Below, one piece after another: positions 5,927 through 20,359 of a stretch of 64,000 nt of DNA (the first letter of the stretch is position 1; each line of letters opens with the position of its first letter). The stretch lies in assembly GCA_001799715.1 (NCBI GenBank), contig MGTZ01000007.1, positions 60,162 to 124,161 of the forward strand. The letters run 5' to 3'. The notes beneath the pieces were generated by a model. That model was not told where the DNA came from, ran no database searches, and saw only the letters and a list, made by a program, of their open reading frames with translations. Source of the stretch: Elusimicrobia bacterium GWB2_63_16. Its GTDB lineage: Bacteria > Elusimicrobiota > Elusimicrobia > Elusimicrobiales > UBA9959. The position numbers were made by a program, and so were the translations under genes.

Positions 5927-7351
5927 TCAGGCGGCCGGCTTGCCTTTTCGCCGAAAGCGGTCTAAAAACAAAGCCATGAAGCCGCGCTCCTGCCCGAGCG
6001 GGCTGTAGAGGTTGATGGCGTCCCTGCGCAGATGCGCGATGAACATGATGGGGAGGTTCCAGAGGAATTCCGCCCACCAGGCCTTCTTCCAATGGGAGGG
6101 CAACCGGCGCAGGATGGACGGCAGGGAATAGAACTTCTTGTAATACTTCATGTAGCCGCGGAAGAATTCCTCGTCGGTCAGGTCGGGCCCGGACATTTTG
6201 TAATCGGGGTAGGCGCCTGGCTTATAAAGCCACCAGCGCGGCCGCCGGAGCAGGCCTTTCTCCAGCAGTTCGCGGTAGGTGCGCGTGCCGGGCAGCGGCG
6301 TCAGCGCCCACCAGGCGGTATAGGGCACCTTCGCGCTTGTGAGGAACTCGTAGACCCGCCTGAACTGGCCCGGCGAGCCGGTGCCGGGCTGGAACACCAT
6401 GCTGGCCAGTACGGAAATGCCATGACGGGAAAAAGCGGCCAGCTGCCGCCGGTACTGGTCCGTCCTGTTGAAAGACTTGTTGAACTCCGAAAGCGTCTCG
6501 TCGCAGAGGGCCTCCATGCCCACCGTGATAGAGCGGCAGCCGCTGCGCTCGGCCAGCTCCAGCAGTTCCTCGTCGTCGGCGCAGTCCATGGTGGCGTTGC
6601 CCGCCCACACCACCTTGAGCGGGATTAGCGCCCGCAGCAGCTCTTTGGCCCGGGCCGGGTCGCCGAAAAGATTATTATCGGCGAAGGAGCAGCCGCGCGC
6701 GCCGAGCGCCTTTATCTCCGCTATCACCTCGGGCACCGGCCTCACCCTGTAGCCCGCGCCCAGGAAAGGGGTGACGGAACAGAAAGAGCAGTTATGGGGG
6801 CAGCCGCGCGAGGTTTCTATCGAGTAAGTGGGCAGCGGGATGATCCTGGAGAGGAGGGGGCCGCCGCGCGAAGTGTAATAAAGTTTTTTATCTATCAGGT
6901 CGTAGCGCGGCACGGGCCAGCCCGCCATGGACGGGCGCGGCAGGCCTTTATAGGTCTTCTGCGGCGCGCCGGCGCGGAGATCTTCGATGAAGCGCGGCCA
7001 GGTCTCCTCAGCCTCCCCCACGATCACCGTGTCGGCGTGGGCGAGCGCCTCTTCGGGCTCCATGCTGACATGGATGCCGCCCATCACCACGTACGCCCCG
7101 CGGCGGCGGAACTCGTCGGCTATGTCGTAGGCCCGCGCTATGGACTTGGTATAGCCGGTGATGCCGACGAGGTCGGGCCCCGAGGCGTAATCGATCTCCT
7201 GCAGCATGTCGATGCAGATCTCCACCTGGTCGCGGGGCGGGACCAGGGCCGCGAGGCAGGGCAGGGTATTGGCCGGGGTAAAGCCGACGCGCGTCTTGTC
7301 CACGCTGCCGTCGCTGCGGTACCTGGCGGGCTCAATTAGCAAAATTTTCAT
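5927..7351 (-). CDS. B12-binding domain radical SAM protein
   Basis: 474 aa; N-term MKILLIEPARYRSD..., VVMGGIHVSMEPEEAL, CPHNCSFCSV. Confidence 0.9.
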   Translation of the reverse strand: MKILLIEPARYRSDGSVDKTRVGFTPANTLPCLAALVPPRDQVEICIDMLQEIDYASGPDLVGITGYTKSIARAYDIADEFRRRGAYVVMGGIHVSMEPEEALAHADTVIVGEAEETWPRFIEDLRAGAPQKTYKGLPRPSMAGWPVPRYDLIDKKLYYTSRGGPLLSRIIPLPTYSIETSRGCPHNCSFCSVTPFLGAGYRVRPVPEVIAEIKALGARGCSFADNNLFGDPARAKELLRALIPLKVVWAGNATMDCADDEELLELAERSGCRSITVGMEALCDETLSEFNKSFNRTDQYRRQLAAFSRHGISVLASMVFQPGTGSPGQFRRVYEFLTSAKVPYTAWWALTPLPGTRTYRELLEKGLLRRPRWWLYKPGAYPDYKMSGPDLTDEEFFRGYMKYYKKFYSLPSILRRLPSHWKKAWWAEFLWNLPIMFIAHLRRDAINLYSPLGQERGFMALFLDRFRRKGKPAA

Positions 7352-7387: not shown

Positions 7388-8401
7388 CTACAGGAAAAAC
7401 CTCGGCTTCTGGTTCCAGATTATTGTTTCGGGCTGTACTATGGCTATAGCCTGCACCCCGCGCCGCAGCCGCCAGGCGTCTGCCGCCGCTACCCCGCGCG
7501 AAAGCAGCAGCGCGGCGGCGGCCGCTCCCTCCCACCAGGCCAGCTTGCGCAGGCGGCCCAGGTAGCGGCCGCGCCAGCTCCGGCTGAGCTCCTGCGAGGC
7601 GGCCAGCAGCGCGGGCGAAATGAACTCTCCCCCCCGGCCGCAGAAAGCGGCGGCCACCGACCATTTATCCACCCCGGTAAAAGGAGACCTGACCGTGCCG
7701 CTGATCTTAAAAGTCTTGTCCTGCGCCGCGAGGGCGGCTATGATGTCGCCCGACTTCACCTCCAGCCCCGCTATGGCCGCCCGCCGCTCCCCGGTCAGGT
7801 CCTCGGGGATCTTGAAAGCGATAAAGATCATCAACTGCACCAGCCCGGAGTTGGCCCGGGCCCAGTCATAGACGGCGCCCGCGGAGGCCAAGTTGGATTT
7901 GTTTACGGTCATGTTGAAATAGCAGGAAAGCCCGCCGGCCGCGCGCACCATTTCCGCGAATCGCTGCCGCAGGGGATTGAGCGCGGCCTCGTCCTTGCCC
8001 GTCCAGCCTTCGCGGTTCTGCAGGGAATCCACGTGCAGACAGACCCCGGCCAGGCCCTCGGCCTTGTACGAGGCCAGCAGGGCAGGGGTCAAGAGCTCGC
8101 CGTTGGTAACCAGGAAGGGGTGGAAGCCGGATTGTTTGATGTAGCGTATCACTTCGGGCAGGTGCGGATAGCAAAGCGGGTCTCCGCCGGCCACGGCGAT
8201 GACGTCGGCGTTGACCTTCTGTTTTATCGCGTCTATTTCGGCCAGCACGGCCCCCAGCGGCTTGTGCTCGCCGGAGTTATTGGTGGAGAAGCAGCCCGTG
8301 CAGCGCATATTGCACTCTTTGGTGGGCTCCAGCCAGGTGATTATCGTGTCCAAGGCGGTCCAGGGAAGGCTGTATTTTAAATCGGCCGGAGGAATACTCA
8401 T
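7388..8401 (-). CDS. Radical SAM protein (HpnH/SPASM-like)
   Basis: 337 aa; CNMRCTGC, AGGDPLCYPHL. Confidence 0.88.
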   Translation of the reverse strand: MSIPPADLKYSLPWTALDTIITWLEPTKECNMRCTGCFSTNNSGEHKPLGAVLAEIDAIKQKVNADVIAVAGGDPLCYPHLPEVIRYIKQSGFHPFLVTNGELLTPALLASYKAEGLAGVCLHVDSLQNREGWTGKDEAALNPLRQRFAEMVRAAGGLSCYFNMTVNKSNLASAGAVYDWARANSGLVQLMIFIAFKIPEDLTGERRAAIAGLEVKSGDIIAALAAQDKTFKISGTVRSPFTGVDKWSVAAAFCGRGGEFISPALLAASQELSRSWRGRYLGRLRKLAWWEGAAAAALLLSRGVAAADAWRLRRGVQAIAIVQPETIIWNQKPRFFL

Positions 8402-8419: not shown

Positions 8420-9268
8420 TTAATGCAACCTATAGATAAGTACGGCGACCAAATACACGTTGGTAAAACCAAAAACCCACTCATAGTATAGCCGGGCCCG
8501 CGGTTTCAATGTCAGGAAGGAAAAAACTGCCAAGGAGGCAGAGAGAAAGCCCCCTCCGTACTCCCCCTGCACAAGGGAAACCATCGCCGCCGCGGTCAGC
8601 AGGACAATAACAAGCAGCACTGAAGCCGGTACCCCCAGAACGGCCGGGAAGGTCCAAACCCCCGCTTCGCGGTCCCCTGTTACATCTCGGATGTCCGCAA
8701 GAACATTCAGGCAAAAAAGCAGAATGAGGAAATGGATGGAAGACTTCAGTACAGGAATAAAAATGGAGACAGAGAAACCGTATTGGTAAATTACCGGGGC
8801 GAGGATGCCGACAGTCCAGAAATTCAGCATATTCGCCAGCACTTTCAAACCAGGGATAGCCTTAAACCGCTTCGGGAAAAGGCGAGGATCGCTATAAACA
8901 ATCATGACCACTGCCGCGTACATCAGCAGTTGCAGAAAGCCCGCCGCCGCCAGTATATAGACTGGCACGGCCGCCGCCGCCAGCAGGCGCCATGAACTGT
9001 GTCGTACCACCCTGCCTCCGGGGATATTTACCACATCCTCCCTGTTGCGAAAACGCGCGTCGTAGGCATAAATTAATTCATAAAGAGCGAAGAACGACAA
9101 GGCGCAGAGAACGGATCCGGTTGAGATACGACCCGAAACCATGATGGTCGTGTTAAGATAAAGCAGGAACGAAGCCAGCGGCAGCGCCGTGCGGTACCTC
9201 AAGTAAAGGTCCAGTAGACTGTAGCTCATATCTCTTGACATAATGCCGTTTCCAAGTTGCCGGCGCAT
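8420..9268 (-). CDS. UbiA-like prenyltransferase family membrane protein
   Basis: Multi-TM; second Asp motif DIRDVTGDREAGVWTFPAVLG as in UbiA; first motif degenerate (YDARFRNRED). ATG at 9268 preferred over the TTG at 9277; a start further inside (MSYSLLD) is also possible. Confidence 0.75.
   Translation of the reverse strand: MRRQLGNGIMSRDMSYSLLDLYLRYRTALPLASFLLYLNTTIMVSGRISTGSVLCALSFFALYELIYAYDARFRNREDVVNIPGGRVVRHSSWRLLAAAAVPVYILAAAGFLQLLMYAAVVMIVYSDPRLFPKRFKAIPGLKVLANMLNFWTVGILAPVIYQYGFSVSIFIPVLKSSIHFLILLFCLNVLADIRDVTGDREAGVWTFPAVLGVPASVLLVIVLLTAAAMVSLVQGEYGGGFLSASLAVFSFLTLKPRARLYYEWVFGFTNVYLVAVLIYRLH
9174..9198. repeat. 25-bp direct repeat, copy 1
   Basis: gccagcggcagcgccgtgcggtacc, identical to 9323-9347. 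Confidence 0.95.
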
Positions 9269-9282
9269 TGCTTCCAATTGTA

Positions 9283-9740: not shown

Positions 9741-10496
9741 ATGGGGAAAGCAGACCTGGACAAACTTTGGGCGCTGGCGCGGGCCGAGTGGCGGCTGCGC
9801 CAGCAGAGCACCTTTTTCGGCTTCCTGTGGACCCTGCTCAACCCCGCCCTGATGTTCGCCGTCCTTTACGGCCTCTTCGTCAAATGGCTCGGCCGCGCCC
9901 AGGGCGACTACGCCGTCTTCCTGCTGATAGGCCTCGTCGAGTGGAACTTCTTCGCCTCCGCCACCTCCTACGCCCTGTCCAGCCTGCTGCGCCGCGGCCC
10001 GCTGCTTAAAAGCTACCCCCTGCCGCTGGAAGTCCCCGTCCTCGCCGCCGTGCTCAGCGTCTATTTTTCCCATTTGCTCGAGCTCGCCGCCCTCGGCCTG
10101 ATACTCGCCTGGTTCCAGGCGCCGCCTTCTTTTCCCTGGCTCTGGGTGCTCGTGATAGACGCCGCCTACCTGGGCCTGGCCGCCGGGGCCGGCCTGCTGC
10201 TGGCCGGGCTTTACGTCTTCTTCTCGGACCTGGAACGCATCTGGAACCTGGTCCTCACCGCCGGCTTCTTCCTCACGCCGGTCTTCTACCCCCTCTCGGT
10301 GCTCGCCCCAGACAAGGGAGCGCTGCTTAAGGCCAACCCGCTCACGGCAGTGATAGAAAGCGCCAGGCTGGTTTTCTCCGGTTCCGCCCCGCGCCCCGGC
10401 GACCTGGGGCTGACGGCGCTATGGGCCGCCGCCGCGCTGGCCGCGGGCTTGGCCCTGCTGCGCTTCAAGCGGCGGGCCATAGAGGACGCCCTGTGA
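9741..10496 (+). CDS. ABC-2 type polysaccharide/polyol-phosphate export permease
   Basis: 251 aa; N-term LRQQSTFFGFLWTLLNPALMFAVLYGLFVKW, multi-TM. Confidence 0.9.
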   Translation: MGKADLDKLWALARAEWRLRQQSTFFGFLWTLLNPALMFAVLYGLFVKWLGRAQGDYAVFLLIGLVEWNFFASATSYALSSLLRRGPLLKSYPLPLEVPVLAAVLSVYFSHLLELAALGLILAWFQAPPSFPWLWVLVIDAAYLGLAAGAGLLLAGLYVFFSDLERIWNLVLTAGFFLTPVFYPLSVLAPDKGALLKANPLTAVIESARLVFSGSAPRPGDLGLTALWAAAALAAGLALLRFKRRAIEDAL

Positions 10497-12082
10497 CCGG
10501 CCTCGCCGTAAAGAATATCTCCAAGACCTACCGGGTTGAGCTGCCCCGGGAGGACGCGCTCTCGGTGCTGATGCGCTTCTTCAGCGGCCGCTCCCCGTCG
10601 CGCCCCTTCAACGCCCTCGACGGCGTCTCTTTCGACCTGAAACCGGGACGCGCGCTGGCGCTCTGCGGCCCCAACGGCTCCGGCAAGACCACCCTGCTCA
10701 AGATCCTCGCCGGCATTACTTCCCCCTGCTCCGGCGAGGTCGCCTTCGCCGGTAAAACGGCCTGCCTGCTGGGCTTCGCCTCCATCCTGCAGGACCGCCT
10801 GAGCGTGAAGGAGAACGCCCGCCTCTGCGCCGTCTTCTTCGGCCTGCCTGGCGCCCCCGCCGAAGCGGCGGAGCGGGTGCTGGCGGCCTCCGGGCTGGCG
10901 CATTTGCGCAATGCCCGCGCAGGCGAGCTTTCGGCCGGCATGAAGCTGCGCCTGCCCTTCATGGCCGCGCTGGCCTGCGGCGCTGACCTGTTCCTTATCG
11001 ACGAGACCCTGGCCGTGGGAGACGCGGCCTTCCGCGACCTGTGCCTGGCCCGCCTGCGGGAGCTCAAACGCGCCGGGGCCATGCTGGTTTTCGCCACGCA
11101 CGACCAGGCCCTCGCCAAAGGCCTGGCCGACGAGGCGCTGGTGCTGGAAGCCGGAAGGCTCGTCTTTTCCGGCGCGGCGGCGGCCCTGCCCCACCACGGG
11201 GCAAAAGAGCCGCCCGGTACCGCCTTCCGCCGCGGTCTGGAGCGGTACGCCGTCCTTTATGAAAAACTGAAGGCCGCCGGCTACGCGCTGCAAGAAGCCC
11301 CGCCCGCCTCCGACGAAGAACTGCTGCTGGTCCACACTCCGGGCTGGCTCGCGCGACTCAAGAACAACGAGCTTTCCCCCGCCGAAGAAGAGGCGCTGGC
11401 GCTGCCCCTCTCTAAACATATCCTGCCCCTGTCCTGGCGCCTGGCTGGCGGCACCCTGGCCGCGGCCCGCGCCGCGCTCTCGTCGGGCCTGGGGATCTTC
11501 CCGCCGGGCGGCGGCCACCACGCCTTCCCCGACCGGGGCGAAGGGTTCTGCCCGGTCAACGACATAGCCGTGGCGGCGCGGGCGCTGCTGAAAGAGGGCC
11601 TGGTCAAAAGGCCAGCCGTCATAGACCTCGACGCCCACCAGGGCAACGGCACGGCCTTCATCTTTGCCGACGGCGAGGTGCGGACTTTCTCCGCCCATAA
11701 GGCGGGCGGCTACCCGCCGCAGCGGGTACGCTCGTCGATGGACGCCGAGATCCCCGACGGCTCCGGCGACGCCGTTTACCTGGCGGCGGTTAAAAAAGGA
11801 ATAAAGGATTTTCTGGAACTGGCGAAACCCGACTTCGTCTTCGCCCTCTGCACGGCCGACGCCTACGAAAAAGACCCGCTGGGCGGGCTGAAGGTTTCGG
11901 CTGAAGGGCTGGAGGAAAGGGACAGATTCGTCTTCGGCACCCTGTCGGAGAAAAAGCTGCCAGTCTGCCTGATACTGGGCGGGGCCTACAGCGAACCGGC
12001 GGAAGCCGCCGGCATAAATTTCAACACTATACAGGCCGCGGCCGCGGCCTGCGCGTCATTCAACAAGATCGTAAGCGTATAG
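10493..12082 (+). CDS. ABC transporter ATPase fused to histone-deacetylase-fold domain
   Basis: GTG start overlaps permease stop (GTGA). N-term: GPNGSGKTT, LFLIDETLAVGD. C-term: PGGGHHAFPDRGEGFCPVNDIAVAA, VIDLDAHQGNGTA, TADAYEKDPLGGL, GGAYS. Confidence 0.92.
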   Translation: MTGLAVKNISKTYRVELPREDALSVLMRFFSGRSPSRPFNALDGVSFDLKPGRALALCGPNGSGKTTLLKILAGITSPCSGEVAFAGKTACLLGFASILQDRLSVKENARLCAVFFGLPGAPAEAAERVLAASGLAHLRNARAGELSAGMKLRLPFMAALACGADLFLIDETLAVGDAAFRDLCLARLRELKRAGAMLVFATHDQALAKGLADEALVLEAGRLVFSGAAAALPHHGAKEPPGTAFRRGLERYAVLYEKLKAAGYALQEAPPASDEELLLVHTPGWLARLKNNELSPAEEEALALPLSKHILPLSWRLAGGTLAAARAALSSGLGIFPPGGGHHAFPDRGEGFCPVNDIAVAARALLKEGLVKRPAVIDLDAHQGNGTAFIFADGEVRTFSAHKAGGYPPQRVRSSMDAEIPDGSGDAVYLAAVKKGIKDFLELAKPDFVFALCTADAYEKDPLGGLKVSAEGLEERDRFVFGTLSEKKLPVCLILGGAYSEPAEAAGINFNTIQAAAAACASFNKIVSV

Positions 12083-12892
12083 CCGGTAGAGCAGCGCCCT
12101 CGAAGCGAAGGCCGGAGCCATGAAAGACTCGGTGCCCGAGCCGTCGCCCAGCGCCAGGCGCCCCGCCCAGTAGGCCGCCGTCGGGCCGGTCAGGTCCTTC
12201 TTCACCTTCAGCTTCCAGCCCGTATTTTTACTGGCCTCCAGGTATTCCCGCTCGGCGTGAATTTTAGTGACGTAGGCTTTGTCGGCCTGCCGCGCGTAGG
12301 CACGGCCCCGCGCATGGGCCTCGTTGCGAACCCAGGCAATGATCACCAGCCGCGCCCCCGGCCTGGCGGCCCGCGCCGTCTGCGAAAAGAAGAGGGCCAG
12401 GTCGGGCACGTGCTCGGTGGACTCGCAGGCCCAGACGCGGTCGAAGGAACCGGGCTTGAAAGGCAGGGCCAGCATGGAGGCCCTGGAAAATCTCACGCGC
12501 CCGCCCAGCCCCCGCCCTTTGGCGGCGGCGCGGGCAGCGGCGGCCTGGTAGGAGGAAACGGTCACGCCTCTGATGGCGAGGCCCGGGCATTTTCCGGCGA
12601 GCAGCAGGCTGGAGCCGCCCCGGCCGCAGCCGGCGTCGAGCAGCGCCATGCCGGGGCGGGGATTACGCAGGTATTTAAAGCCCAGCTCGGACAGGGCCGT
12701 CTCGGAGGCGTGGATGAGGGCCTTGCCGGCGGCGCCGCTTTTTTTGAGGCGCCGCAGAAAAGCGGCCTTGCCATAGACCAGCCCGTTGTGATGATGGATG
12801 ACGCCGTCCGGGGCGAGGCGCCAGTTGAAATCCCGGCGCTTGGCGTCGTACAGGGCGGCGACTTTTTTAAGCCACGGAGCGGTAGTTTTCAC
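12056..12892 (-). CDS. SAM methyltransferase resembling geranyl diphosphate 2-C-methyltransferase
   Basis: 278 aa, GTG start. FNWRLAPDGVIHHHNGL, LLDAGCGRGGSSLLLA, CESTEHVPDLALFFSQ, KIHAEREYLEA. Confidence 0.75.
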   Translation of the reverse strand: MKTTAPWLKKVAALYDAKRRDFNWRLAPDGVIHHHNGLVYGKAAFLRRLKKSGAAGKALIHASETALSELGFKYLRNPRPGMALLDAGCGRGGSSLLLAGKCPGLAIRGVTVSSYQAAAARAAAKGRGLGGRVRFSRASMLALPFKPGSFDRVWACESTEHVPDLALFFSQTARAARPGARLVIIAWVRNEAHARGRAYARQADKAYVTKIHAEREYLEASKNTGWKLKVKKDLTGPTAAYWAGRLALGDGSGTESFMAPAFASRALLYRLYAYDLVE

Positions 12893-13416
12893 GGTGTTCC
12901 CTTTTGCAGCGCCGCCGAGAGCGCGGCCGCCAGGCGTTCGGCTGAAGCGCGCGGAGAGGCCTCCAGCCCCCTGAGCCTGGCGGGCAGGGCCAGCAGCGCG
13001 GGGAGGGCGGCCATTTCCCCGGCGAAAGCGGCGTGCAGGCGCAGGGCGGCGGGAGCGGGCAGGCGGCCCGCCCCCGAAAAAAGAAAATGGCGGGAGTAAT
13101 TCCCCAGGGCCATGGCGAAGTTCAGCGTCATCGGCCTGTCCATGCCCGGCAGCAGGACACCGCGGCGCACGAAGTCTGCTGTTATTTGCTGCGAGGCCTG
13201 CCAGCAGCGCAGCGCCAGGGCCAGGTCCCGGCGCAGGGCCGCGGGGAGGGAGGCGGGCAGGCCTGTTTCCGCCGGCACGGGCCGGCGGCACAGGGCGCGG
13301 GCGGGAGAGAAGAAAGCCTCCTCGGCGGTGCTGCTGTCGCCGGGAAAAGGGGCGCTCCCCAGCCTGGCCTTGTGCCAGGAGCGGACCTTGGCCGCGCCGG
13401 GAAACAGTTCGCTCAT
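12889..13416 (-). CDS. Hypothetical protein (orphan in operon)
   Basis: 175 aa from MSELFPGAAKVRSW; overlaps both neighbours by 4 nt (ATGA, GTGA). Confidence 0.7.
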   Translation of the reverse strand: MSELFPGAAKVRSWHKARLGSAPFPGDSSTAEEAFFSPARALCRRPVPAETGLPASLPAALRRDLALALRCWQASQQITADFVRRGVLLPGMDRPMTLNFAMALGNYSRHFLFSGAGRLPAPAALRLHAAFAGEMAALPALLALPARLRGLEASPRASAERLAAALSAALQKGTP

Positions 13417-14141
13417 GCCCGGCAGGCCTCGCGGATGGCCGCCAGCCGCTTCGGGCAGACCGCGCGGGAGCGGTCCGCGCCAAGGCAAACGGCGCCGCGC
13501 AGCCCTACGATATCGGGGCCGAGCTTTTTCAGGGCGGGCAGGTGCCGTTCGGCCACGGAGCCGGCCAGGGCCGTGCCCAGTCCGGCGGCGCGCGCCAGCG
13601 CCAGGAAACCCGCCAGCTCGCGGAGCGTCATATTGTCGAAAAGGCAGCGCCCGTCCTTGAGCGCCGTGTCGAGCATCACTATGTCGGCCCCCGCCTTTCG
13701 GGCGGCCCGCACCAGCGCCCGCGGCGAGAGCCCGCCGAAGCGGCGCCAGTCGGCGTAGCCGGAAATTACCGCCCGCGCGCGCGGGTTCGCGTTTTTAACG
13801 CCTTTCACCACCGCCCCGGCCAGGGCCTCGGCCTGCGCGCCGGCCTTCACCTGGTAAAGCCCGCCTTTCACATAATCGGCCCCGATAGCCGCCGCGGCGT
13901 AGGCGGCCAGGGCCGCCGTGCCCGGCTTGAAGTCCAGGTCGCCGATGGCGGCGCTGAACTTTACGGGGAAGCGCTTCAGTTCTTTGATGACCGCCGACAG
14001 CACCCAGGGGAAATTAGCGCCGAGCGAGCCCTCTTTGACGTTCTTGAGGTCCAGTATATCGGCGCCGCCGCGGGCCACTATGCGCGCCTCGCGTATATCG
14101 ACGGGACTGACCAGCAGTTTTATCCTATTTGTTCCTGTCAT
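13413..14141 (-). CDS. (5-formylfuran-3-yl)methyl phosphate synthase-like (MfnB / DUF556)
   Basis: LLVSPVDIREARIVARGGADILDLKNVKEGSLGANFPWV, MLDTALKDG, DIVGLRGAVC. Confidence 0.9.
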   Translation of the reverse strand: MTGTNRIKLLVSPVDIREARIVARGGADILDLKNVKEGSLGANFPWVLSAVIKELKRFPVKFSAAIGDLDFKPGTAALAAYAAAAIGADYVKGGLYQVKAGAQAEALAGAVVKGVKNANPRARAVISGYADWRRFGGLSPRALVRAARKAGADIVMLDTALKDGRCLFDNMTLRELAGFLALARAAGLGTALAGSVAERHLPALKKLGPDIVGLRGAVCLGADRSRAVCPKRLAAIREACRA

Positions 14142-15198
14142 AAGCCATGTAGCGTCCGAGGCCGCCGAAGAATTCCCTGTATTTCCGCCCCAGCGGGAAA
14201 GCCTCTATATTCTTGAGCGCCCTGCCGTAAAACACGCCTATCAGCCGGCGGTTTTCGCGCAGGGCCCCGCTGGCGCGCACTATATCTATAACATTTTTGA
14301 GGCGCCCGGCGGAAATGCGCGCGTCGCCCAGCGCGGAGCGCAATTCGCGCCGGCAGGCCGCCGGGGCCAGCTCCAGAGCCTTCAGGTAAAGGTAGGTATA
14401 GCGCCCTGCGGTGATGTCGTCGGCCAGCGGCTTGCCCCATTGCGCGCTGCGCGGAAAAAGGTTCAGTTCGTCGCCGTGCAAATGATAGGCCATGCCCAGC
14501 CAGGAGCCCGCTTTTTCGAAGAGCGGCAGCTGCTCACGGGAGGCGCCGCCCAGCAGCGCCCCCATTCTGAACGGGCCGTTGAAGGAGAGGAAACGGATGC
14601 GGTCCCAGGTCATGGCCAGGTACTCCCGCGGCGACGGCCGCCGGCGCGACGCGGTCCAGTAAAGTTCCAGGGCCTGCCCGTAGCCGTAGGCGAAGATCTC
14701 CCTTGAGAGGGAAGACAGTATTTCCAGCCTGCGCCAGTCCTCCAGCCGCAGCCCGGGATCGAGGAAAGCGCGGTAGGCCCAGTTATAGGCGGCCTGGTAG
14801 GCGAGATAGGCTTTATTCGCGCCGTAGAGCTTGTGGGTGGCCGGCCCGCCGCGCCGGGTGTCGGAGCCGTCTATCAGATCGTCGAAGCTGACGGTGGAGG
14901 CCTCCATCAGCTCTATGGCCCCGAGTACCGCGGAGTAAGACCCCGGCTTTTTGCCGAAGGCGCGCAGCAGCTCGTGCGTGATCAGCGGGCGCAGCATTTT
15001 CCCGGGGCGCTCCAGATAAAGGCGGGCCGGCAGGCAGACGGCCCGGCGCAGCGCGGCCGCGCGCCCGGGAGAAGGCGCCCCCCCCGGCCAGGCAGCCGGC
15101 AGGCGGCGCGGGAAAGCTTCAAGGGAAGCGGCGGCCGCCGCGGCGCTGGCCAGCCGCAGGGAAGTGTTTTCAGCTTTCGCCGCCGCGCTCTGTTTCAA
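14125..15198 (-). CDS. Polyprenyl synthetase-like protein with degenerate second Asp-rich motif
   Basis: First motif SFDDLIDGSDTRRGGPATH; second motif position reads YHLHGDELNLF; GKPLADDITAGRYT. Confidence 0.82.
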   Translation of the reverse strand: MKQSAAAKAENTSLRLASAAAAAASLEAFPRRLPAAWPGGAPSPGRAAALRRAVCLPARLYLERPGKMLRPLITHELLRAFGKKPGSYSAVLGAIELMEASTVSFDDLIDGSDTRRGGPATHKLYGANKAYLAYQAAYNWAYRAFLDPGLRLEDWRRLEILSSLSREIFAYGYGQALELYWTASRRRPSPREYLAMTWDRIRFLSFNGPFRMGALLGGASREQLPLFEKAGSWLGMAYHLHGDELNLFPRSAQWGKPLADDITAGRYTYLYLKALELAPAACRRELRSALGDARISAGRLKNVIDIVRASGALRENRRLIGVFYGRALKNIEAFPLGRKYREFFGGLGRYMAYDRNK

Positions 15199-16227
15199 TT
15201 AAAAAGTCCTTCGGCCCAGCGCCTGGATGAATTCGGCTATCAGCCGCCCGCCCGGCGGGCGCATGGCCGGCAGCAGGCTTTTTTCAAAAACGGCGGCGGC
15301 GGCGGCGGTCAGGGCCTGCGCCCTGGCCCGGCAGGCGGCCGGCGCGCCCGAAGCCAGGATGGCGCGCCGCGCGGCCGCCACGGCGGCGGCGGACTTGGCG
15401 GCGGGCGGCAGAGAATACAGCCGCGCCAGGCGGCGCGCCGCGGCGGGCGGCAGGCGCCTGAAGGCCTCCAGCGCCACCAGGGTGCGCTTGCCCTCGAGTA
15501 TATCGTTGCCGGGAGCCTTGCCGAAAAGGCCGGTCCCGTCGTTCTCGGCGTCCAGCACGTCGTCGGTGATCTGGAAGGCCGCGCCCAGCAGCCGGCCGAA
15601 TTCGCGGATGGCAGCGGACTGGCCGCGCGCGCCGGCCAGCTCGGCCCCGAGCAGGCACGGCACGGTCACCGTATAGAACGCGGTCTTGCGCTCCGCGATG
15701 CGCAGGTAGGCTCCGGGGGTGAATTTTTCAAGCGGGATCTCCCTGGCCTCGATATCGAGGTGCTGGCCCCCCAGGGTGACTTCGGTAGCTTCGGCAAAAA
15801 TAGCGCGCACCCGGCCGTATTCGCCCGCCGGCAGGCGGCAGTAGACGTAGAGCATGTCGAAGACGCAGTCGTGCAGCATGTCCAGCGCGTTGAGGGCGCG
15901 CGGCAGGCCGTAGCGCAGGTGCAGGGCCGGCAGGCCGCGGCGCAGCTGTCCGCCGTCGAGGATATCGTCGCGGCCGAGGCCCCAGTCTTCCAGCAGCTGG
16001 TAGGCCGAGGCCACCTTGAGCGCCGGCCCGGGGCGCCCGCCGTAAGCCCGCGCGAAGAGCAGCGCCAGCGCCGGGCGCAGGGCCTTGCCGCGGCGGTAAG
16101 GGTAATCCTTCACGCAGGCCCGCATGGCGGGCGGCAGCGGGGCCGTCCGCTTTTCCAGGTAGGCCCGCACGTGGCGGAACACGCCGTCGCGGCAGGAGGA
16201 AAGGAAAAGTTCGAGCTGTGTTTTCAT
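15199..16227 (-). CDS. Polyprenyl diphosphate synthase
   Basis: RRGKALRPAL, DDILDGGQLRRG, AFQITDDVLD, GNDILEGKRTL; start MKTQLELF. Confidence 0.9.
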   Translation of the reverse strand: MKTQLELFLSSCRDGVFRHVRAYLEKRTAPLPPAMRACVKDYPYRRGKALRPALALLFARAYGGRPGPALKVASAYQLLEDWGLGRDDILDGGQLRRGLPALHLRYGLPRALNALDMLHDCVFDMLYVYCRLPAGEYGRVRAIFAEATEVTLGGQHLDIEAREIPLEKFTPGAYLRIAERKTAFYTVTVPCLLGAELAGARGQSAAIREFGRLLGAAFQITDDVLDAENDGTGLFGKAPGNDILEGKRTLVALEAFRRLPPAAARRLARLYSLPPAAKSAAAVAAARRAILASGAPAACRARAQALTAAAAAVFEKSLLPAMRPPGGRLIAEFIQALGRRTF

Positions 16228-16301
16228 GGTTGGCAGCGCAGCCGCGGAATATATTATAGGACTATTGCGGCAGGGATAAAAAGCCGGCCCGACGCAGGCT
16301 C

Positions 16302-17057
16302 CTACTCCGCTCTGACCAGGGTGCCGCAAGCGCGGCCGCCGGAAAGGAATTTCAGCAGTTCGCCAGGCCGCCTGCCGTCCGCGATAAAACTGTCAACGCC
16401 CAGGGCATTAAGCCTGGCCAGTTCCGCCGCCTTGCCGGCCATGCCGCCGCTGACGTCGCCGGGGGAAGGGCGGCAGATCTTTCTGAACAGCTTCAAACCG
16501 GCGGCGTTCAGCTCGCCGATCACCTTGCCTCCGGGCCCCGTCAACCCTTGCGCGGCCGTAAAGAATACCGCCAGCCGGGGTTTGAAGGCCGCGGCCAGCT
16601 CCGCCGCTATGGCGTCGCTGGAAACCACCCTGAACCCGCCGCCGCAAGGAAAAAGGTCGCTGTTGACCACGGGGACGCAGCCGCGGGCCAGCAGGGAGGA
16701 AAGCCGGCGTGTGGCCGACAGGACAAGCCGCCCCCGTTTAAGGGCAAAGACCTCGCAGCCCGGGCAGCTTACGGCCTTTACACCGGCCGCCAGCAGTTCG
16801 GCTACGAACAGGCCGTGCAGCTCCCTGAGCGAAGCCTTTATCTCCGTCACCGGGGCGGCGCCCCGCCTTATCCGTCCGTCCAGGTAACCGTACCTCACGG
16901 CAGGCGGCTTGCCGTACGAGCCGGTACCATGGGTCAGAATGAGCGGCTCGTCCAACAGGGCAATGGCCGCGGCCAGGCGGGCCGCGGCGCGGCGGTCGAA
17001 AACGGGTTTCTGCCCCGCGCGGGTTATGGAGCTGCCGCCGGCTTTAATTACTAGCAT
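16302..17057 (-). CDS. Amino-acid-kinase-superfamily kinase, isopentenyl phosphate kinase-like
   Basis: 251 aa; MLVIKAGGSSIT, LILTHGTGSYGKP, VVSSDAIAAELA, GDVSGGMAGK, GTLV. Confidence 0.78.
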   Translation of the reverse strand: MLVIKAGGSSITRAGQKPVFDRRAAARLAAAIALLDEPLILTHGTGSYGKPPAVRYGYLDGRIRRGAAPVTEIKASLRELHGLFVAELLAAGVKAVSCPGCEVFALKRGRLVLSATRRLSSLLARGCVPVVNSDLFPCGGGFRVVSSDAIAAELAAAFKPRLAVFFTAAQGLTGPGGKVIGELNAAGLKLFRKICRPSPGDVSGGMAGKAAELARLNALGVDSFIADGRRPGELLKFLSGGRACGTLVRAE

Positions 17058-17080: not shown

Positions 17081-18016
17081 ATGAGCGCGGCAGAAAAAAA
17101 ACTCTACTGGGGAGACAGGGGAATGCGGAACCTGTCGGCCGGGGCCAGGCTGGATATGGCCGTGCTCAAGGCCAGGCTGGCCGCCCGGCGGCCAGGCGTG
17201 CCTCATTCCCTTTTTCTCGGCCTGACGGCCCGCTGCGACCTGGCCTGCCGCCACTGCAAGTACTCCGGCAGGGCCGGGACCAAAGATATGCCGCGCGCCC
17301 TGCTGCGCCGCCTGCTCGCGGCCGCCGCCAGGGCCGGCGTACCCCGGGTGGTCTTCTTCGGGGGCGAGCCGCTGCTGTACCCGGGCCTGGAAGAGGCCGC
17401 GGCTTTCGCCTCCAGGCTGGGACTGTTCACCGAGTTGGACACTAACGGCCAGACCCTCTCCCCAGACCGCGCCCGCGCGCTGGCCGCCGCGGGCCTCTCC
17501 TGCACCATGATCAGCCTTCATTCCGCCAATGCCGCCCGTCACGACGCCCTGTCCGGGCGCGGCTCCTTCGCCCGGGCCGCCGCCGCCATCGGAGCGTCCC
17601 GCGCCGCCGGGCTCATCACCTATATCTCCTCCTGCGTCTTCTCCGCTTCGCTCGCCGGGAAGGAACTGGCCGGCCTGCTGGCCTATGCCAGGCGGGCCGG
17701 GGCCCACGGGGCGCGCCTGCTGGCCTACTCGCCCCCGGCGGGCCGCGATCCGCTGCCGTCCCGGCTGGCCGGCCGTCTGGCGAGGCTGTCCCCCGAAGGT
17801 TACGCCAGGACCTGCGCCCTGCCCGGCGGCGGCTGCGCGGCCACGGCCGGAGACGTGCTGTACTGCGGCCCCGGCGGCGAGGTGCGCCGCTGTCCCTACG
17901 CCGGCGCCGCCCTGGGCAATGCCGGCCGCCGCGGCCTCGCGGCTTTCCTGCGGCCGCGCCCCGCGACTCCCGCCCCCGTTTTCCCCTGCCAAGGCGGCCG
18001 CAGTTTGCTAAAATAA
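17081..18016 (+). CDS. Radical SAM protein with C-terminal Cys residues (SPASM-like)
   Basis: 311 aa; CDLACRHC, VFFGGEPLLYPGLEEA, late Cys cluster. Confidence 0.87.
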   Translation: MSAAEKKLYWGDRGMRNLSAGARLDMAVLKARLAARRPGVPHSLFLGLTARCDLACRHCKYSGRAGTKDMPRALLRRLLAAAARAGVPRVVFFGGEPLLYPGLEEAAAFASRLGLFTELDTNGQTLSPDRARALAAAGLSCTMISLHSANAARHDALSGRGSFARAAAAIGASRAAGLITYISSCVFSASLAGKELAGLLAYARRAGAHGARLLAYSPPAGRDPLPSRLAGRLARLSPEGYARTCALPGGGCAATAGDVLYCGPGGEVRRCPYAGAALGNAGRRGLAAFLRPRPATPAPVFPCQGGRSLLK

Positions 18017-18020
18017 AACC

Positions 18021-18305
18021 ATGCCGGAAAACAAGAAGAACCCGCTGATACTCGAGTCGGTAACCTGGCGCAAGACCGGCGACGAGGCCGTTATACTGGA
18101 CCTCGAGAGTTCCAATTATTATTCAGCCAACGAAACCGGCACCTTCGTCTGGGAACAGTTCAGCGCCGGCAAGAAGCCGGAGAAGATCGCCGAAGGCCTC
18201 GCCGAGGAGTACGGCATCGCTCCCGCGCAGGCGCGGCGCGACGTGGAAGATTTCCTCAGGGACCTCGCCAAATTCAAGATAGTTCGCCCGGAGGCGGCCA
18301 AATGA
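18021..18305 (+). CDS. PqqD-family protein (RiPP recognition element-like)
   Basis: 94 aa; AVILDLESSNYYSANETGTFVWEQF...IAEGLAEEY. Confidence 0.85.
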   Translation: MPENKKNPLILESVTWRKTGDEAVILDLESSNYYSANETGTFVWEQFSAGKKPEKIAEGLAEEYGIAPAQARRDVEDFLRDLAKFKIVRPEAAK

Positions 18306-18406
18306 AACAGCAGAAGAAAACCCGGCAGAAGCCGCGCAAGTACCAGAAGCCCCAGCTCCGTTCCCACGGGAAGATAAGTGAAGTCGCTTCCGCCTTCAAA
18401 CCTTAA
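18302..18406 (+). CDS. Candidate RiPP precursor peptide (not in ORF track)
   Basis: 34 aa MKQQKKTRQKPRKYQKPQLRSHGKISEVASAFKP; ATGA overlap with the PqqD gene; YQKPQL = YxxPxL. Confidence 0.6.
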   Translation: MKQQKKTRQKPRKYQKPQLRSHGKISEVASAFKP

Positions 18407-19361
18407 AACCAGAACTGCCTTCCTGTTCCCCGGTTCAGGCAGCCAGTACCCCGGCATGGGCCGGGAACTGTACCGCCGGGTACCAGCGGTGCGCGCCGCC
18501 CTCGACGCGCTGCCGCCGCAGTCCTCCCACGGACTGCGGGACATCATGTTCTACGGCCCGGAGAGCAAACTGTTCCCGCCGGTAGACTCTCCCACCCCCT
18601 CCCTCTTCTTCGAAGCCACCGTGGCGCTGTCGCTCTCGGTGGCGGCCGCCTTGCGCGCCTCCGGAGCGAGGCCGGACTGCGCCGCGGGCCGCAGCGTCGG
18701 CGAGTTCGCGGCCTTCGCCTTCGCCGGCGCCGTCGCCCCCGGCTTCTGCTTCAGGGCCATACGCGAGTTCTCCAGGCTGGGCCAGCGCAACTGCCTGGAA
18801 CGGCCCAGCGTGCTGCTGACGGTATACGGGGCCGGCAGGTCGGACCTGCAAAAAGCCTGCGCGGCGCTGGCCCGCGGCGGGCGGGTCTGCGAACTGGTTA
18901 ATTTCTACTCCCGCCTCAACGCCGGCGTGGCCGGGATGGACGCCGCCCTGGCCGCCCCCTTCAGGGCGCTGCTGCCGAAGCGCGCGCGCGTTAAGGCCTG
19001 CAGAGAGGTCGGGGCCTTTCACACCTCCCTTTTCGCCGATACCGCGTCGTCCGTGGCCGGCCTGGCCGCCGCGGAGACCTTCAACAGACCTTCCTGCGGC
19101 CTCTATTGCGCCAGCGACGCCCGCCGGGCGGCCGCCCCGTCCAGGCTGCGCTCGCGCTTCGCCAGGGCCGTGGACGGCCCTGTACTGTGGGAGGAGACGC
19201 TGCGCGCCATGCTGCGCGACGGCGTGCGCACTTTCGTGGAGCTGGCCCCCGGCGCGATGCTGACGGAATTCATCTGCGACCTGCCGCCCGGCGCGGAGGT
19301 GCTGCGCACCGACACGCCCGAAAATTACGCCGCGACCCTGGCGAGGCTGGTGAAAGAATGA
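18378..19361 (+). CDS. Malonyl/acyl-CoA:ACP acyltransferase-like (FabD fold)
   Basis: FPGSGSQYPGMGRELY, GRSVGEFAAFAFAGA, GAFHTSLF, ELAPGAMLTEF; GTG start. Confidence 0.85.
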   Translation: MKSLPPSNLKTRTAFLFPGSGSQYPGMGRELYRRVPAVRAALDALPPQSSHGLRDIMFYGPESKLFPPVDSPTPSLFFEATVALSLSVAAALRASGARPDCAAGRSVGEFAAFAFAGAVAPGFCFRAIREFSRLGQRNCLERPSVLLTVYGAGRSDLQKACAALARGGRVCELVNFYSRLNAGVAGMDAALAAPFRALLPKRARVKACREVGAFHTSLFADTASSVAGLAAAETFNRPSCGLYCASDARRAAAPSRLRSRFARAVDGPVLWEETLRAMLRDGVRTFVELAPGAMLTEFICDLPPGAEVLRTDTPENYAATLARLVKE

Positions 19362-20359
19362 AGACCGCCCCGACGCTAAGACTGAACCTCTCCGGCTGCG
19401 CCGTAGAGTTCGCCTGCGGCGACCGGGAGCTCGCCGCGGCCGTGGCGGCGGACTTCTCCGCTTTCCCCTCCGGCGGCGGCGGGGACCCCGTCAGGATAGA
19501 AGCCAGGCTGGAAGCCGTAAACCGCCCCGAGCTGGCCCTGTTGCGGAGCCGGCGCTACAGCGTTCTGCCCGCCCGCCCCGGCCTGCGCCGGATCTGGTAC
19601 CCCGAGGGCGCCCTCTGCGAGTATGACTATGCCGCCCGCTCGGCCCTGATACGCGCCGCCGGCGGCTCCCTGCTGAAGGAGCTCTCCTACCTGCTGATAC
19701 TCTCGCGGGCCGGCGAAGAACTGGACCGGCGCGGGCTGCACCGCCTGCACGCCGGGGCGCTGGGCCGGGGCGGCCGGGCGCACTTGTTCTGCGGGCCGCA
19801 GGGTACCGGCAAGACCACGCTGCTGCTGGAACTGCTCAAGGACCGGGACTTCAGCCTTCTCTCCGATGACACCCCGCTGGTCGCGAGGGACGGGACCGTG
19901 CTGGCCTTCCCGGTCCGCGTCGGCCTCGGGCTGGACAGCCCCCACCTGCCTGAGCTCGGGGAGTTAAGGAAATTCGAACGGCGGCATTACCCGCCCAAAC
20001 GTCTCCTGGACATCGGCCCGGCCGGCATCCGGGTTTCGCCGCAGCTGCCGCCTGGCGGGATATTCCTGCTGCGCCGCGCCGCCGCCCCCCGCATAAGCCC
20101 CGCGGGGCGCGGCGCCGCCGCCGTAGAACTCCTGCGCTCGCTGGCGCTGGGCTGCGGCACGCCGCAGCTGGCGGAATATTTCCTCAGGCCGGATCCAGCC
20201 GACGCGGCAAGCAAGGCCGGAATACTCTTCTCCCGGCTGCGCGCCGCGCGCGCGCTGCTGGCCAGGGCTGATTTTTATGTTTTCGAGGTCGGCCCGGACC
20301 GGGCCAAGAACGCCGCGGCCTTCAAGTCTTTCCTGAACACCGGCACCGCCGCGGCCTGA
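19358..20359 (+). CDS. HPr kinase-like P-loop protein
   Basis: RLHAGALGRGGRAHLFCGPQGTGKTTLLLELL, FSLLSDDTPLV; ATGA overlap with acyltransferase stop. Confidence 0.8.
   Translation: MKTAPTLRLNLSGCAVEFACGDRELAAAVAADFSAFPSGGGGDPVRIEARLEAVNRPELALLRSRRYSVLPARPGLRRIWYPEGALCEYDYAARSALIRAAGGSLLKELSYLLILSRAGEELDRRGLHRLHAGALGRGGRAHLFCGPQGTGKTTLLLELLKDRDFSLLSDDTPLVARDGTVLAFPVRVGLGLDSPHLPELGELRKFERRHYPPKRLLDIGPAGIRVSPQLPPGGIFLLRRAAAPRISPAGRGAAAVELLRSLALGCGTPQLAEYFLRPDPADAASKAGILFSRLRAARALLARADFYVFEVGPDRAKNAAAFKSFLNTGTAAA

Follow-up and report, generated by a model that had tools for sequence, protein, structure and literature searches.

Why would a bacterium keep the enzyme that makes the furan ring of methanofuran among genes for isoprenoid synthesis? 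The question is raised by a 64,000-nucleotide stretch (the window) of contig MGTZ01000007.1 from Elusimicrobia bacterium GWB2_63_16, an Elusimicrobiota metagenome-assembled genome whose relatives include GWA2_62_23, GWC2_64_44 and GWD2_63_28, in which a homologue of the furan phosphate synthase MfnB shares an operon with two prenyl-synthase genes, a kinase, an orphan and a methyltransferase. To our knowledge, and as far as the searched literature shows, MfnB is known solely for forming the furan in methanofuran and methylofuran synthesis, and searches of the literature on natural-product clusters containing MfnB, or on Elusimicrobia isoprenoids, returned nothing relevant. The answer that we tentatively prefer is that the cassette makes a furan-isoprenoid hybrid, a meroterpenoid-like lipid in which the MfnB furan phosphate would be joined to a prenyl chain. 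An earlier examination of the letters alone (the sequence-only reading) had proposed a furan-isoprenoid or methyl-branched prenyl product, and the furan-isoprenoid link stands as the best reading, with the product itself still putative. The operon is laid out as follows, in window coordinates:

16302-17057, minus strand: isopentenyl phosphate kinase (IPK)-like gene of the amino-acid-kinase fold (IPPK_Arch, 107 bits)
15199-16227, minus strand: PS1, a canonical trans-prenyl diphosphate synthase (PF00348, 150 bits)
14125-15198, minus strand: PS2, a prenyltransferase with the prenyl-synthase fold (PF00348, 126 bits)
13413-14141, minus strand: MfnB-type (5-formylfuran-3-yl)methyl phosphate synthase, 242 amino acids (PF04476, 242 bits)
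12889-13416, minus strand: orphan, 175 amino acids, all-helical by prediction (no match in Pfam or NCBIfam)
12056-12892, minus strand: S-adenosylmethionine (SAM) methyltransferase of the geranyl diphosphate C-methyltransferase type (NF041943, 119.5 bits)

All six open reading frames (ORFs) of 12056-17057 were found again where the sequence-only reading had placed them, with the overlaps it had reported: 17 nucleotides (nt) between PS2 and MfnB (14125/14141), 4 nt between MfnB and the orphan (13413/13416) and 4 nt between the orphan and the methyltransferase gene (12889/12892), while the PS1 and PS2 frames abut (15198/15199). Hidden Markov model scans against Pfam and NCBIfam agree with its labels and establish the enzyme families, the orphan matching none; the overall families thus held, but three of the names (isopentenyl phosphate kinase, PS2 and orphan) are corrected below. 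The operon sits within a larger island, at about 5.9-25 kb, whose further genes include an exporter, a UbiA-like gene and a pair of radical-SAM genes; the first two of these, like an independent MfnB-MfnE-UbiA cluster in a related genus, are additions to the first account.

By its sequence, the MfnB homologue is a true member of PF04476 with its active-site motifs intact, scoring 242 bits against a family cut-off of 22.4 and 220 bits to Methanocaldococcus jannaschii MJ1099 (structures 4rc1/4u9p), whose catalytic lysine/aspartate motifs DxKNxKEGSLGANFPW, ADYxKxGLY and MLDTAxKDG it retains together with the capping-loop Arg; the original MfnB call is borne out, and descent from an unrelated TIM-barrel family is not supported. 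It is the only PF04476 copy in the window genome. In methanofuran synthesis, MfnE converts furanmethyl phosphate to the diphosphate and MfnF is the coupling enzyme. MfnF (TIGR03123) is absent from all 11 genomes searched, that of the window included, while the M. jannaschii positive control matched; MfnB is therefore not accounted for by methanofuran. The sequence-only reading had named a full methanofuran pathway in another part of the genome as a competing explanation; such a pathway is rejected on this absence, the generic MfnC, MfnA and MfnD families lying outside the search. MfnE (NF040622) was not found in the window genome, nor as a full-length match across the phylum except in one genome described below. 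Compared with methanofuran and methylofuran biosynthesis (MfnA-F; Orf22, Orf21, Orf9), the cassette has the same MfnB with conserved active-site motifs and an amino-acid-kinase-fold phosphate kinase nearby, but MfnF is absent, MfnE is missing from the window genome, and the cassette carries prenyltransferases and an exporter where methanofuran has tyramine-glutamate coupling. Another PF04476 relative (L026, 9581-10372; 132 bits) lies beside unrelated genes; its first catalytic-lysine motif is replaced (DVEYPASALG), and it probably has a different activity.

Do these genes belong together, or has MfnB merely drifted next to functionally unrelated prenyl genes? PF04476 is present in 11 of the 59 genomes of one Elusimicrobiota family that formed the comparison set, and in ten of these the order PS2-MfnB-orphan-methyltransferase recurs, followed (as contig ends permit) by a convergent ATP-binding cassette (ABC) ATPase-deacetylase fusion and an ABC permease, the fusion adjoining the methyltransferase gene in all complete loci; the conservation of gene order that the sequence-only reading had wanted checked is therefore found, within one family. 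In the most divergent locus (L028, with MfnB at 51% identity) only a short divergent ORF occupies the orphan's position, and even there the 17-nt PS2/MfnB overlap is kept, as in all ten loci. PS2 (>500 bits) occurs in exactly ten of the 59 genomes, the same ten that have the cognate MfnB, its profile scoring 530-620 bits there, while none of the remaining 49 exceeds 49.5 bits; co-inheritance is established, and no two genes of the set are bound more closely than PS2 and MfnB. PS1, the UbiA gene and the two radical-SAM genes shift position between loci yet remain inside the island, and the kinase and PS1 are placed less tightly than the PS2-MfnB-orphan-methyltransferase core. Because the same core order and overlap recur in ten genomes, the grouping is not due to chance; hitchhiking, for which one can cite the confinement of this form to ten genomes of a single family, is very improbable given conservation down to 51% MfnB identity and the existence of a second, differently arranged MfnB-UbiA cluster.

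That second cluster lies in a genome of another genus of the same family (G082, locus L025, 7429-11606), a compact row of radical SAM, MfnB (33% identical), MfnE (127.5 bits, cut-off 300), UbiA (41.7 bits) and a HisA/F relative (143.6 bits). An ABC permease/ATPase pair resembling that of the island lies about 12 kb away, its ATPase without the histone-deacetylase-like domain; MfnF was not found in G082. As judged from these family assignments, L025 independently ties furan-phosphate activation to prenyl transfer. The same row could be taken to point towards a furan C1-carrier cofactor akin to methanofuran or methylofuran, with UbiA or PS2 substituting for MfnF, for in Methylorubrum the MfnB, MfnE and MfnF homologues serve methylofuran together with the HisA/HisF-family Orf17, which is required for it (PMC8141765), and L025 has MfnB, MfnE and a HisA/F relative. 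With MfnF absent, MfnE missing from the window genome and no role for prenyltransferases in the known furan cofactors, such a carrier is improbable, the H4MPT and formylmethanofuran enzymes lying outside the search.

What, then, would attach a prenyl chain to the furan? An alignment finds both DDxxD motifs in PS1, whereas PS2 departs from the pattern in a consistent way: its first Asp-rich motif is intact (DDLID; DD[LI][IV]D across the ten loci), it also retains the basic motif GKxLRP, and its second Asp-rich motif is off the DDxxD/N consensus, reading GDELN (HGDELN) in ten of ten loci. The earlier label of a degenerate polyprenyl synthase fits the fold (PF00348, 126 bits) but needs correction, the first motif being intact and the second altered. 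A similar pair of Asp-rich motifs is known from the fungal enzyme PaxC, which joins geranylgeranyl diphosphate to indole-3-glycerol phosphate and carries DDISD with a non-consensus NDXXN (PMC3760044). By analogy, PaxC is the closest functional precedent for PS2, a prenyl-synthase fold with an aromatic phosphate as acceptor; PS2 resembles the indole-diterpene prenyltransferases PaxC/AtmC/LtmC in fold, in its kept first DDxxD and in its off-consensus second motif, and the reaction proposed for it resembles theirs in using a phosphate ester as aromatic partner, while those enzymes are fungal, use an indole acceptor and have NDXXN where PS2 has GDELN, the sequences being compared at the level of the common fold. 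A second prenyl synthase family, 34-37% identical to PS2 and with a PS2-like second motif (GD[EI]LN), occurs inside some clusters (L016, 682-1788; L017, 6158-7291; L028, 12007-13095), each copy adjoining a helical protein of no known family.

The orphan encoded between MfnB and the methyltransferase has a conserved GMDxPMTLNFAMALGNYSR across loci and an all-helical AlphaFold2 model (predicted local distance difference test score, pLDDT, 83.5), and its top Foldseek matches are nearly all prenyl diphosphate synthases, at non-significant E values of at least 0.27. Profile-profile comparison with PS2 detected no similarity, and we therefore reject the orphan as a proven prenyl-synthase relative, the Foldseek result being fold-consistent but not significant; a role as a degenerate prenyl-synthase-like partner subunit of PS2 is possible. 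The helical neighbours of the additional prenyl synthases were not adopted as its homologues, mutual identity being 20-26%.

The kinase raises the question of which partner is activated. It scores 76 bits to AA_kinase and 107.3 bits, over its full length, to the archaeal IPK model IPPK_Arch, under the NCBI equivalog cut-off of 120, and it has Lys at the position of IPK His60 (GTGS[YF]GKPPA, where the IPK motif is GxGSFGH) in every true member read. His60 is said to occur in all IPKs (PMC9654404). The kinase is thus not the standard isopentenyl phosphate kinase of the sequence-only reading, on both the residue and the score, and it is no MfnE either, matching IPK models and no MfnE model. In the window genome GcpE of the methylerythritol phosphate (MEP) pathway is present, incomplete where its contig ends, and HMG-CoA reductase was not found; the kinase gene therefore does not belong to a mevalonate route of the archaeal type. 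It occurs in nine of the ten cassette genomes, in each case sharing a contig with MfnB and lying within about 16 kb of it, the MfnB contig of the tenth being just 5 kb long. Outside these it was seen in G058, whose contig breaks off shortly before reaching the MfnB position, and in G202, on a contig of 1.7 kb; a weak match in G239 is to another kinase. The window genome has two other PF00696 matches, neither of them MfnE, and by score these look like housekeeping kinases.

It has been suggested, in the sequence-only reading, that a furanmethyl diphosphate would mimic an allylic diphosphate, and from this one may build a scheme in which the furan is the donor: the kinase would act like MfnE to make furanmethyl diphosphate, and PS2 or UbiA would use it as starter or donor. 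The shared PF00696 fold of MfnE and the IPK-like protein, the tracking of MfnB by the latter in a genome whose other PF00696 genes are not MfnE, the presence of UbiA beside MfnB and MfnE in G082, and the DDxxD first motif kept in PS2 are all consistent with such a scheme, which is possible; but the IPK-like protein falls in the IPK branch, outside the MfnE family, and the PS2 motifs match those of an enzyme in which the aromatic phosphate is the acceptor, and on balance we consider a furan donor rather unlikely.

The methyltransferase is closest to geranyl diphosphate 2-C-methyltransferase (NF041943), as first proposed, and shares with this and other prenyl diphosphate C-methyltransferases its best PDB matches (4f84/3vc1) and the N-terminal HHH motif, but at 119.5 bits it does not reach the cut-off of 400, and no terpene cyclase was seen adjoining it. 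The remaining island genes that bear on the pathway are these:

10499-12082, plus strand: fusion of an ABC ATPase and a histone-deacetylase-like amidohydrolase (PF00005, 77 bits; PF00850, 161 bits), convergent with the methyltransferase gene
9741-10496, plus strand: ABC-2 exporter permease (PF01061, 59 bits), adjoining the fusion gene in the loci read
8420-9277, minus strand: UbiA-like membrane prenyltransferase (PF01040, 28.8 bits, cut-off 34.2)
7388-8401, minus strand: radical SAM protein (PF04055, 53.7 bits)
5927-7351, minus strand: B12-binding radical SAM protein (PF02310 and PF04055)

The UbiA-like gene is present in all ten cassette loci, its orthologues scoring 31.1, 35.8 and 49.9 bits, and the motif DxRDxxGDxxxG is kept. 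The first radical-SAM gene lies inside the cluster in L017, L018 and L027 and the B12-binding one in L013, L014, L015 and L019, the nearest NCBIfam models of the latter being lipid/hopanoid B12-radical-SAM families, all under cut-off. Like UbiA-type meroterpenoid clusters, the cassette joins a UbiA-like gene, a prenyl synthase and an aromatic-ring-forming enzyme, the difference being that its ring former is MfnB, making a furan from triose phosphate, rather than a source of chorismate- or polyketide-derived rings.

Three loci without MfnB (L089, L090, L091) have the exporter, UbiA and a radical-SAM/PqqD/acyltransferase/kinase module at the same place, one of them retaining the methyltransferase, and no MfnB, PS2 or IPK-like gene was found within the stretch read; the furan genes thus resemble an exchangeable cassette within a biosynthetic island of variable content. 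These loci, and the glycosyltransferases and PqqD/radical-SAM module that adjoin the cassette, favour an arrangement in two branches, where a methyl-branched prenyl chain (from PS1, PS2, the methyltransferase and UbiA) and the furan phosphate would end on separate portions of one larger molecule, such as a glycolipid or peptide-lipid destined for export, with PS2 as a variant chain elongase; set against the strict co-occurrence of PS2 and MfnB and their overlap in every locus, we regard this as unlikely. The module itself (17081-20359, plus strand: radical SAM, PqqD-like, acyltransferase-like and HprK-related kinase) is conserved beside the cassette and was not adopted as part of it, being found also in genomes without MfnB. 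Beside its PqqD-like and radical-SAM genes lies a 34-amino-acid ORF (18302-18406, plus strand; MKQQKKTRQKPRKYQKPQLRSHGKISEVASAFKP) whose C-terminal KPxxxxHGKIS[ED]VASAFKP hardly varies among the loci read, and which has the look of a precursor that PqqD would recognise and that ends in an invariant tail, comparable to those of pyrroloquinoline quinone (PQQ) or mycofactocin. A nitrilase-like protein (by eye) adjoins the UbiA gene in two of the MfnB-negative islands (L089, 5922-7154; L091, 7623-8846).

Returning to the furan-isoprenoid hybrid, we infer its substrates, joining step, product and export as follows. MfnB, being so well conserved, would condense two glyceraldehyde-3-phosphates to (5-formylfuran-3-yl)methyl phosphate (4-HFC-P), and PS1 would make a prenyl diphosphate from MEP-derived isopentenyl and dimethylallyl diphosphates, which the methyltransferase may C-methylate. 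The prenyl chain would then be coupled to the furan by PS2, which may have the orphan as a partner subunit, by the UbiA-like enzyme, or by both, with the furan phosphate serving as acceptor in the place held by indole-3-glycerol phosphate in PaxC, while the kinase may raise a pathway monophosphate (furanmethyl phosphate or prenyl phosphate) to its diphosphate, and the product would probably leave through the ABC exporter, to which a deacetylase domain is fused. Several points weigh against this scheme: the PaxC likeness is one of motif pattern, with homology compared no further than the general fold, and other causes can make a second Asp-rich motif degenerate; L025 has a different kinase, and PS2 was not seen on its contig stretch; the positions of PS1, UbiA and the kinase vary inside the island, so these genes may serve another branch; and the same locus can carry UbiA, the exporter and, in one case, the methyltransferase when MfnB and PS2 are missing, so that these need no furan.

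It is possible, though we would put it more cautiously than the hybrid itself, that the cassette makes an undescribed class of bacterial lipid in which PS2 and its helical partner, or else UbiA, would prenylate an MfnB furan; the lipid may also be C-methylated and altered by radical-SAM enzymes, and would be exported. We know of few natural products from Elusimicrobiota, and the likely product class, itself putative, would be new. The question is now a testable one, namely whether PS2, with its GDELN second motif, prenylates a furan phosphate; if it does, the lipid would be the furan equivalent of prenylated quinones or of signalling meroterpenoids, and the conserved second use of MfnB would represent a new route to furan-isoprenoid molecules.

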